NCBI GenBank assembly: GCA_002868905.1
Contig: PKUA01000028.1
Location: forward strand, 1-64,000
Origin: Desulfuromonas sp.
GTDB taxonomy: Bacteria > Desulfobacterota > Desulfuromonadia > Desulfuromonadales > Geothermobacteraceae
Length of the DNA: 64,000 nucleotides
Direction of reading: 5' to 3'
Both the position numbers and the translations under genes were made by a program. The notes below the pieces were generated by a model that was not told the origin of the DNA, searched no databases, and saw only the letters and a list, made by a program, of their open reading frames with translations. Positions 49,026 to 51,874 of this stretch are shown piece by piece (position 1 is the first letter of the stretch; each line of letters opens with the position of its first letter).

Positions 49026-49541
49026 TCAACCCAGGATTTGCCCCAGGTCCTCATCAGCTGTTGTAATCGGGCCGATGTTGTAGTTCTCGACCAGGAAATT
49101 GAGCACGTTAGGCGTCACGAACGCCGGCAGACTCGGACCGATTTTGATGTTTTTGATCCCAAGGTGAAGCAGGGTCAGCAGGATTGCGACCGCTTTCTGC
49201 TCGTACCAGGAGAGAACCAAGGAGAGCGGCAAGTCGCTGACACCACACTCAAAGGCATCGGATAGGGGCAGGGCGACCTGGATGGCACTGTAGGCATCAT
49301 TACACTGACCAACATCGAGAAGACGTGGGATACCGTCGATATCACCGAGGTCCATCTTGTTGAAACGGAACTTGCCACAGGCCAGGGTCAAGATGACAGT
49401 GTCTTTCGGGGCCTTCTCGGCAAACTCGGTGTAGTAGTTGCGGCCCGACTTGGCGCCATCGCAACCACCACCCAGGAAGAAGGGCTTGATAGCACCTCCC
49501 TTCACACCCTCGAGCACGTTGTCGGCAACAAAAACAGTCAA
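49026..49541 (-). pseudogene. hcp: Hybrid-cluster protein (Hcp), C-terminal third only
   Basis: 171 codons homologous to the C-terminal part of Hcp/hydroxylamine reductase (normally about 540 aa). Hybrid-cluster ligand motifs are present: [48 protein letters not shown] and [15 protein letters not shown]. The N-terminal cubane Cys motif and the first two thirds are missing; a TGA lies in frame directly before the TTG at 49541. Most likely a 5'-deleted pseudogene. Hcp reduces NO or hydroxylamine. Confidence 0.85.
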
Positions 49542-49666: not shown

Positions 49667-50989
49667 ATGAAGACGTTAAGACTGTTGTCGATTCTGTTGC
49701 TAGGTGGTTTTTTGATTGCGAGCGCTTCATATGCAACGGACAAATGCCTCACATGCCACAAGAACAGCAACCCTGCTCTTTATTTACAGTGGAAGGATTC
49801 TGGGCATGGCAAAAATGGCATTGGCTGCCTGGACTGTCATGAGGCCAAGGAGAGCGATGTCGATGCCTTCAAGCACAATGGCGAAACCATTGCCACCCTG
49901 GTTACACCGAAAGATTGCGGCAAGTGCCATGAACAAATTGAAAAGGAAACCAGTGCCTCTTATCATGCCCATGCCGGGGAGATTCTGGCCTCAAAGGATG
50001 CCTACCTGGCGCACGCTGCAGGCGGGAACCCGATTGTCATTGTCGGTTGTGAGTCATGCCACGGTGCCAAGGTGATCATCGACCCCGACGCGCCCAACAA
50101 GCTCTCCCCCCTCACTTGGCCCAACAGCGGCATCGGGCGTCTGAATCCCGACGGCTCGAAGGGGGCCTGCAACGCCTGTCACTCGCGTCACTCGTTCTCC
50201 AAGTACCAGGCCCGCCAGCCCGAGAACTGCGGCAAATGCCACCTGGGCCCAGACCATCCGCAAAAAGAGATCTATGAAGAGTCGAAACACGGTATTGCCT
50301 ACTATGGCTACCGTGATCGCCTTAATCTGGATAGCGATAAATGGGTTGTCGGTGAAGACTATTATGAAGCACCAACCTGTTCGACATGCCACATGAGCGC
50401 CACAAAAAATCAACCTGTCACTCATGATGTCGGTATGCGGATCTCCTGGACCCTGCGTCCACCAGTATCCAAACACAAGGACAACTGGGAAAAGAAACGC
50501 GCCAACATGCAGGATGTCTGCTCGAATTGCCATCAAAAGCGTTTCGTGAACGGTCACTACTTCCAATACGACGCACTGGTGAATCTTTACAATGAGAAGT
50601 TCGCCAAACCAGCCGGTGAAATCATGAAGATAATCAAAGACGCCGGTGTTATGGAAAGTCCGGCCGCGTTTTCCAATCAAGTAGAATGGGAATATTGGGA
50701 GCTATGGCATCATGAAGGACGTCGCGCACGGATGGGCGCGGCGATGATGGGTCCGGACTATGCCTGGTGGCACGGCATCTATGATGTGGCGCACAACTTT
50801 TATTTCAAGTTCATCCCGGAAGCACGGCACTACAACAACAAAAAGGTTAATGCCTACATCGATAACCTGCTGACCAATGACCCAATGCACACCTGGTTGA
50901 GCAAGAACACCGGAGAAATCAAGAAGTCTATCAACGACGGCGAGTTCCAGAAAACCTATGAGCAGCTATTTGATAAAAAAATGATGTAG
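49667..50989 (+). CDS. Octaheme c-type cytochrome, HAO-family
   Basis: 440 aa, signal peptide 1-23. Eight CxxCH sites (first Cys at 27, 54, 84, 128, 168, 188, 238 and 285) give an octaheme protein. The heme spacing and the C-terminal helical segment WELWHHEGRRARMGAAMMGP plus DYAWWHGIYDV are typical of hydroxylamine-oxidoreductase-family octaheme cytochromes, some of which reduce nitrite to ammonium. It is periplasmic, with an AGGAGG site 5 nt before the ATG and its own terminator. Whether the catalytic heme is Tyr-cross-linked (hydroxylamine oxidation) or not (nitrite reduction) cannot be told by eye. Confidence 0.88.
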   Translation: MKTLRLLSILLLGGFLIASASYATDKCLTCHKNSNPALYLQWKDSGHGKNGIGCLDCHEAKESDVDAFKHNGETIATLVTPKDCGKCHEQIEKETSASYHAHAGEILASKDAYLAHAAGGNPIVIVGCESCHGAKVIIDPDAPNKLSPLTWPNSGIGRLNPDGSKGACNACHSRHSFSKYQARQPENCGKCHLGPDHPQKEIYEESKHGIAYYGYRDRLNLDSDKWVVGEDYYEAPTCSTCHMSATKNQPVTHDVGMRISWTLRPPVSKHKDNWEKKRANMQDVCSNCHQKRFVNGHYFQYDALVNLYNEKFAKPAGEIMKIIKDAGVMESPAAFSNQVEWEYWELWHHEGRRARMGAAMMGPDYAWWHGIYDVAHNFYFKFIPEARHYNNKKVNAYIDNLLTNDPMHTWLSKNTGEIKKSINDGEFQKTYEQLFDKKMM

Positions 50990-51008
50990 CCGATTTAATT
51001 GTCAATTC

Positions 51009-51044
51009 AAAAGGCCCCACTTTCTATAGAGGTGGGGCCTTTTG
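51009..51044 (+). terminator. Rho-independent terminator after the octaheme cytochrome gene
   Basis: AAAAGGCCCCAC ... GTGGGGCCTTTT, stem of 12 bp with an 11-nt loop and flanking A/T runs. Confidence 0.9.
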
Positions 51045-51091
51045 AATTAAGAGATGCGTCATCAACTCAATGCGGGAAAATCGCAAATAAT

Positions 51092-51568: not shown

Positions 51569-51874
51569 ATGGCCGAAGTCTTACATCTTCGCTGTGAACA
51601 CTGTGGCGAGCCTCTCGCCGACAGATCTGAAGCTTACTGTCCTACCTGCAATCTCAATCTTTGTTACCGGGCCATGCCGATCCTGCTCGGCATGCTCTTC
51701 CCATGGACTCGAATGGCCCGGCCTGTACCCGCACGGGTAGCTCAACCTAGCTACTTTCAGGTTCACAGCTATGACGATGAGCCCTGTATTTTCGTTGATT
51801 ATCCGCGGGAGAAATCACAACGCATCCGGGTGGGCGCCTACGAAGAGGAACTCTGCATCATGGTGACCTACTGA
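51569..51874 (+). CDS. Small zinc-ribbon protein
   Basis: 101 aa. CEHC (9-12) and CPTC (24-27) form a plausible four-Cys zinc ribbon at the N-terminus, followed by a hydrophobic Pro-containing linker and a C-terminal beta-rich part (EPCIFVDYPREKSQRIRVGA). A GGAGGAG site lies somewhat far (about 17 nt) upstream, with AAAGG closer. Function unknown. Confidence 0.6.
   Translation: MAEVLHLRCEHCGEPLADRSEAYCPTCNLNLCYRAMPILLGMLFPWTRMARPVPARVAQPSYFQVHSYDDEPCIFVDYPREKSQRIRVGAYEEELCIMVTY

Follow-up and report, generated by a model that had tools for sequence, protein, structure and literature searches.

In which direction does the octaheme cytochrome c encoded at 49667..50989 on the + strand work, and from which donor would it draw its electrons? 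The window, i.e. the whole stretch of 64,000 nucleotides that we analysed, contains the gene as a complete reading frame, assigned as an octaheme HAO-like cytochrome c from its ORF, its Pfam match and its count of CxxCH motifs. The frame opens with an ATG at 49667, its stop codon ends at 50989, and an AGGAGG directly 5' of the ATG makes a strong ribosome site. The N-terminus of the 440-aa product, read by eye, resembles a typical signal peptide of approximately residues 1-23, and the predicted cleavage about A23 keeps all eight CxxCH motifs (residues 27, 54, 84, 128, 168, 188, 238 and 285) in the mature cytochrome. All 16 cysteines lie inside these motifs, no CxxxCH is present in the 440 residues, and 20,000 shuffles of the sequence yielded 0.03 CxxCH on average and two at most, against the eight of the real protein. 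The first-pass annotation had described a short protein with eight CxxCH motifs, no membrane anchor and the WHHEGRRARMGAAMMGPDYAWWHG segment. This description is borne out: the segment occupies residues 347-370, and the heme count in the predicted mature protein is eight and no other number.

The gene appears to be a single-gene unit, because a perfect inverted repeat, 17 nt long with a loop of 11 nt, stands behind it at 51004..51048 (no strand assigned) as a likely transcription end, no other stretch of the 64-kb window holds two or more CxxCH motifs, and the genes just downstream look unrelated. The repeat is missing from a separate scan of the window in which loops were limited to 8. A promoter scan returned three matches where 1.7 were expected, none of them upstream of the cytochrome gene. 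Also downstream, at 51569-51874, there is an ORF of 101 aa with two CxxC pairs, resembling a zinc ribbon.

The cytochrome belongs to the HAO family. PF13447 scores 89.8 bits (Pfam cut-off 21.9), and the best sequence match in the PDB is IhOCC of Ignicoccus hospitalis (4qo5; 1e-38, or 2.7e-66 in a profile search), with chains of HAO, HOX, HAOr and HDH ranking next, so that the earlier placement in the HAO-like group stands. The NCBIfam models of hydrazine dehydrogenase (HDH; 67.2 bits, cut-off 900) and of NrfA (22.3 bits, cut-off 692.5) score the protein below their thresholds. The AlphaFold model has a mean pLDDT of 76.5 and is weak at 170-215; in a Foldseek search with it, the top five matches were all HAO-like, yet at a TM of 0.34. 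Five of the 15 listed structure matches reach E <=0.001, all HAO-like, although a family missing from the structural-alignment results is not thereby excluded. The C-terminal part of the model aligns with 4fas over 154 residues (Z 9.7, rmsd 2.6). We also considered an ONR of the Thioalkalivibrio type, described in passages of PMC8840924 as carrying seven CxxCH motifs and one heme on a non-CxxCH motif, and rejected it since all eight motifs of the cytochrome are CxxCH, with no cysteine to spare.

According to an excerpt of PMC8840924, heme 4 is the active site of HAO, and by alignment with HAO the catalytic heme of the cytochrome would be attached at GCESCHG (residues 127-133; 50045..50065, + strand). 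Asp196-His197 (50252..50257, + strand) align with Asp267-His268 of Nitrosomonas HAO (NeHAO) in sequence and profile alignments, and both residues are present in all 86 type-A and type-B rows among the matches listed. Nine histidines outside the CxxCH motifs (47, 70, 100, 175, 197, 208, 253, 348 and 349) are invariant in the type-A and type-B rows that have a residue at the position. If H197 is catalytic and the 348/349 pair supplies one ligand, seven distal ligands are left for eight hemes, and the nine histidines would thus fit a protein in which one heme is open and the other seven are six-coordinate. Between hemes 4 and 5 the protein carries the insertion PNSGIGRLNPDGSKG (residues 152-166; 50120..50164, + strand), which is found in IhOCC and not in the HAO references.

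The residue in the cross-link column bears on the direction of the reaction. Excerpts of PMC12758564 state that the tyrosine is present in oxidative HAOs, that HAOr is without it and reduces nitrite, and that a reductive role is predicted for the majority of HAO-like proteins in bacteria, which have His at the site. The first-pass annotation had taken Tyr365 as the counterpart of Tyr467 of Nitrosomonas HAO, which is the Y in GGWTYTEGW when counted from the alignment end. Our alignments contradict this. In the segment Tyr365-Ala-Trp367-Trp368-His369-Gly370 (50759..50776, + strand), a MAFFT alignment of 112 rows and an hhalign comparison of a 27-row family profile with the references agree in placing Trp367 in the Tyr467 column. 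Tyr365 instead shares a column with NeHAO Trp465 and is thereby ruled out as the cross-link residue. The cross-linking tyrosine of the oxidative HAO, HOX and HDH is thus missing from the cytochrome in both alignments. The structural alignment with NeHAO stops at 390/489 and would also allow Trp368, a doubt of one residue that arises because VIA-align reports range ends only; the residue is Trp either way. The phmmer and hmmsearch comparisons with the PDB stopped short of the cross-link region of the true HAOs, and we used as a bridge the Ruegeria HAO, whose gene lies beside haoB and which reads FTYSNGW in this region. The HOX row was misaligned by one or two residues in MAFFT, and its Tyr is visible in the bridging alignment. 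The corresponding motifs are QTYGNG in HOX (6t5e), VSWWWG in 6h5l and DYAWWHG in the window's protein; 6h5l, entitled 'reducing HAO-like protein complex Kustc0457/Kustc0458', is the sole solved reference aligned with Trp in the column.

Both positions are strongly conserved. Among the listed matches that have a residue at the position, Trp367 occurs in all 62 type-A rows and all 23 type-B rows (a gap accounts for the remaining one of 24 type-B rows), and Tyr365 in 61 of 62 and 23 of 23, respectively; Tyr365 is also found in 21 of 21 rows of more distant groups (11 + 10). Two distant octahemes, L028 and L029, have Tyr in the Tyr365 column as well as in the cross-link column, implying that Tyr365 is a separate conserved position and not the cross-link residue. 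These two proteins, which read NPDYAYWYG, might have gained an oxidative site independently; a gain of this kind within Desulfobacterota is suggested in a passage of PMC12758564. The cross-link column holds His in six of the ten rows of group D.

Since Trp367 occupies the cross-link column and Asp196-His197 is invariant, the reductive direction is most likely, as far as the alignments allow us to judge. The rule that reads direction from the tyrosine is a correlation drawn from the literature. The first-pass annotation had likewise held reduction to be likelier, on the supposition of an anaerobic metal or sulfur reducer; the direction is retained, and the reason for it is now Trp367.

Several known systems can be compared with the cytochrome. 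IhOCC too carries the heme 4-5 insertion (PNxGxGRxNPDGS) and likewise has no Tyr in the cross-link column, whereas it is longer, archaeal, and has Asp-Val in place of Asp-His. The Kuenenia HAOr Kustc0457/Kustc0458 (6h5l), which is reductive according to part of PMC12758564, has the Trp in the cross-link column, the Asp-His pair and probably the HAO fold in common with the cytochrome; however, it has no heme 4-5 insertion, is larger, forms a complex in anammox bacteria and shows only 21-22% identity in the structure search. Nitrosomonas HAO and Kuenenia HOX and HDH (4fas, 4n4j, 6hif) share the eight hemes, Asp-His and the C-terminal helices, but carry the cross-linking Tyr where the cytochrome has Trp. 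The N-terminus of HAO is also longer, with the first CxxCH at residue 103 of the Ruegeria HAO precursor versus 27 here. The epsilonproteobacterial Hao receives its electrons from a NapC-type partner, HaoC. Compared by description, this partner differs from the ImcH-like protein of clade A described below, and the window's copy has none. Excerpts of PMC5317091 and PMC8940962 present the epsilonproteobacterial Hao as a reductive octaheme without the Tyr.

To place the gene among its relatives, we scanned GTDB species genomes, which encode at least 584 relatives, and kept the best 80 of these. The tree of 107 rows was built by a quick method, has long branches at RpHAO and HOX, covers rows with at least seven motifs, apart from L011.3, L019.3 and C-terminal pieces, and was used solely for groups inside the 440-aa lineage. 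Among the matches listed, this lineage consists of two clades, A with 63 rows and B with 21, and the window's branch comprises 16 of the clade-A rows, mostly Desulfobacterota; L047 was assigned to this branch by 70% identity and not by tree position. In a survey of the order, 35 of 136 genomes have a relative at 1e-100, and five have type A when at least 73% identity is required (G000, G113, G102, G013 and G059, the last in duplicate). Type A is therefore not essential to these bacteria; its patchy occurrence in the order may mean that it moves between lineages. No shared nitrogen genes were recognised among the type-A neighbours in these five genomes, and no palindromes or Fnr-like sites common to the branch were found in 13 upstream regions. 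At the clade-B loci L107 and L108, tandem octaheme genes, coding for about 560 and for 447-463 aa, are separated by a gene for a small exported-looking protein.

The neighbourhood of the relatives offers a candidate electron donor. By tblastn and among the matches listed, an ImcH-type partner gene accompanies the octaheme at 45 of the 51 loci that clade A has beyond the window's branch. The same search found it at none of the 17 loci of that branch, which are the window itself, L047 and 15 further members placed by the tree, and at none of the 14 clade-B loci (L101-L114). The partner lies directly downstream of the octaheme gene at 40 of 47 callable clade-A loci, with most gaps at 3-17 bp. The octahemes of L047 and L091-L094, not called as ORFs, are outside both this count and the tree, and the partners at L082, L092 and L094, likewise not called, were counted by tblastn. 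The partner has approximately 500 aa, carries one CX3CH and five CX2CH in all 42 called copies, and is covered in part by matches to the NapC/NirT and NrfH models. ImcH homologues are described in passages of PMC6295460 as having three membrane helices, a CX3CH and five to nine CX2CH, and are linked there to extracellular electron transfer. Judged by its heme-motif layout, which matches that of ImcH of Geobacter sulfurreducens, the clade-A partner would be an ImcH-type membrane quinol oxidase; the Geobacter protein has been described for extracellular electron transfer, while the clade-A partner pairs with an octaheme.

Six clade-A loci outside the window's branch have no partner. The available sequence ends within 250 bases at L054, L080 and L099 and within 1,400 bases at L063, whereas L048 and L058 offer more than 2 kb and yet no partner. 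Some loci of the partnerless branch are short as well (L061, L006). In a more distant sister group (L017, L018, L116, L117 and the second octaheme of L043), a tetraheme NapC/NrfH-type gene stands immediately upstream. An ImcH relative was detected in 41 of 58 genomes searched (three weak), and none was detected at 1e-5 in the whole genome to which the window belongs. The window's gene is a partnerless member of an ImcH-paired group. We did not find the pairing of ImcH with an HAO-like octaheme in a literature search in which few of the retrieved papers were examined, and it may be new; part of PMC6896113 describes hao and hcp as neighbours of a decaheme membrane cytochrome.

As to nitrogen chemistry, the gene divergent to that of the cytochrome is a truncated hcp copy (49026..49541, - strand), identified by profile match and DNA comparison. 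Hcp is the hybrid cluster protein, also called 'hydroxylamine reductase'. The fragment is open over 171 codons, covers the C-terminal third and ends abruptly. Its DNA is 78% identical to that of the complete hcp gene that the genome carries on contig C74. The two copies differ mostly at third codon positions (22, 13 and 74 differences at the first, second and third), with 63 codons changed silently and 27 non-silently. This mostly silent pattern suggests that the gene was probably functional before it was cut. A full Hcp gene lies one or two genes upstream of the octaheme at L051, L062 and L097, i.e. at only three of the 51 clade-A loci that are not part of the window's branch, and NorR and a nitric-oxide reductase adjoin the octaheme of a Desulfosarcina plasmid. 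Over the clustered loci, with neighbour families named from one identified member each, NapH-like genes occur near 11, Crp/Fnr near 10, Rrf2 near 7 and Alginate_exp porins near 12.

No NrfA was found in the window's genome. The best model for its three molybdopterin enzymes is NuoG (two above the NuoG cut-off, one below), and none of the three comes near the cut-off of a nitrate reductase model, leaving no clear nitrate reductase. Given the lack of NrfA and the NuoG-like nature of these proteins, the candidates for reduction of nitrogen oxides are Hcp, the cytochrome and the two paralogues of the cytochrome. Two heme-copper oxidase large subunits imply that the bacterium may use oxygen. One paralogue is a second octaheme, of clade B, split over the end of contig C31 (L003) and the start of C72 (L002); the exact 99-base overlap of the two ends indicates that it is probably one intact gene. 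The third HAO-like multiheme gene of the genome (L004, C80:22078-22884) encodes 429 aa with nine CxxCH and His in the cross-link column, and is preceded in relatives by a lipoprotein-like gene. The genome's only NapC/NirT match is a 426-aa eight-heme protein (L120, C12:43806-44195) that adjoins an iron-sulfur protein and perhaps belongs to another quinol-linked complex.

We consider it fairly probable, on balance, that the cytochrome is a periplasmic HAO-family reductase of nitrite, NO or hydroxylamine. The soluble protein would be exported to the periplasm, where seven covalent hemes, each with two His ligands, would carry electrons to a five-coordinate heme 4, with the substrate bound beside Asp196-His197. 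As no tyrosine cross-link tunes heme 4 for oxidation, electrons would most likely be delivered to the nitrogen substrate, possibly nitrite, NO or hydroxylamine, giving ammonium or a partly reduced product, and the reaction might serve to detoxify the substrate or to respire at a low level. Outside the window's branch, the octaheme of most relatives would receive its electrons from the ImcH-type quinol oxidase of the adjacent gene; in the window's genome, which is without ImcH, free periplasmic cytochromes might be the donors. Against a nitrogen reductase, no working nitrogen gene adjoins the window's copy, which is flanked by the hcp fragment and unrelated genes only.

Other roles have to be weighed against this one. 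The ImcH layout of the partners (all 42 called ones, within the 45 of 51 loci) and the role of ImcH proteins in extracellular electron transfer given in parts of PMC6295460, together with the Alginate_exp porin-like genes near 12 loci, could also point to a non-enzymatic periplasmic relay, in which electrons would pass from an ImcH-like quinol oxidase through the octaheme to outer-membrane cytochromes for extracellular respiration. A relay would have no need of an Asp-His pair that is invariant in 86 of 86 rows, however, the window's genome has no ImcH relative, and passages of PMC6295460 describe imcH without adjoining mtrAB or mtoAB; we regard it as unlikely. We think it equally doubtful that the protein reduces sulfite, tetrathionate or another sulfur compound. 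Sulfur chemistry is known in the wider fold family, and many carriers of the window's branch are Desulfobacterota, but the neighbour families that recur included no conspicuous sulfur gene, and the neighbours that were identified point to nitrogen oxides or quinol oxidation. Such a function was proposed for HAO clade I of Tharpellota on the ground that oxidised nitrogen is scarce in sediment, in a proposal that its authors themselves term speculative (excerpts of PMC9213671).

The conservation of Tyr365 only two residues off the cross-link column might suggest a hydroxylamine or hydrazine oxidase in which this residue cross-links from a shifted position. In the proven oxidases, however, the Tyr365 column is filled by Trp or Phe and the Trp367 column by Tyr, the surroundings of the cytochrome gene showed no HaoB-like or ammonia-oxidation gene, and the protein falls far short of the HDH cut-off as given above, which makes an oxidase very improbable. 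Least probable of all seems a relict of horizontal transfer that is useless in the window's genome. The rarity of type A in the order, the missing partner and the broken hcp next door would be in keeping with a relict, but the frame, the heme motifs and the active site of the window's gene are all intact, and 16 other partnerless loci persist in the branch, one of which (L006) has seven motifs and a longer frame.

Returning to the nitrogen-reductase reading, we tentatively put forward, as a possibility that we hold with less confidence than the reductase itself, that the short Trp-type octaheme reductase and the ImcH-type quinol oxidase constitute a respiratory module of two genes that is widespread over about ten named phyla. 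ImcH would then serve a terminal reductase of nitrogen oxides, or of another acceptor, besides extracellular transfer, and the window's branch would have dropped the oxidase and drawn on shared periplasmic cytochromes. Proteins of this kind are already known in numbers, and parts of PMC9213671 give the function of HAO-family clades I and II, outside Campylobacterota, as unknown. The ImcH pairing, the invariant active site and the Trp column now make the function of the clade testable. The locus also carries a warning that direction should not be called from a conserved Tyr that lies two residues off the true position. For the organism, the consequence is that nitrite or hydroxylamine may be handled even where NrfA and a clear nitrate reductase are missing and, if the two-gene module proves true, a part of the HAO family whose role was previously unknown would gain a function.
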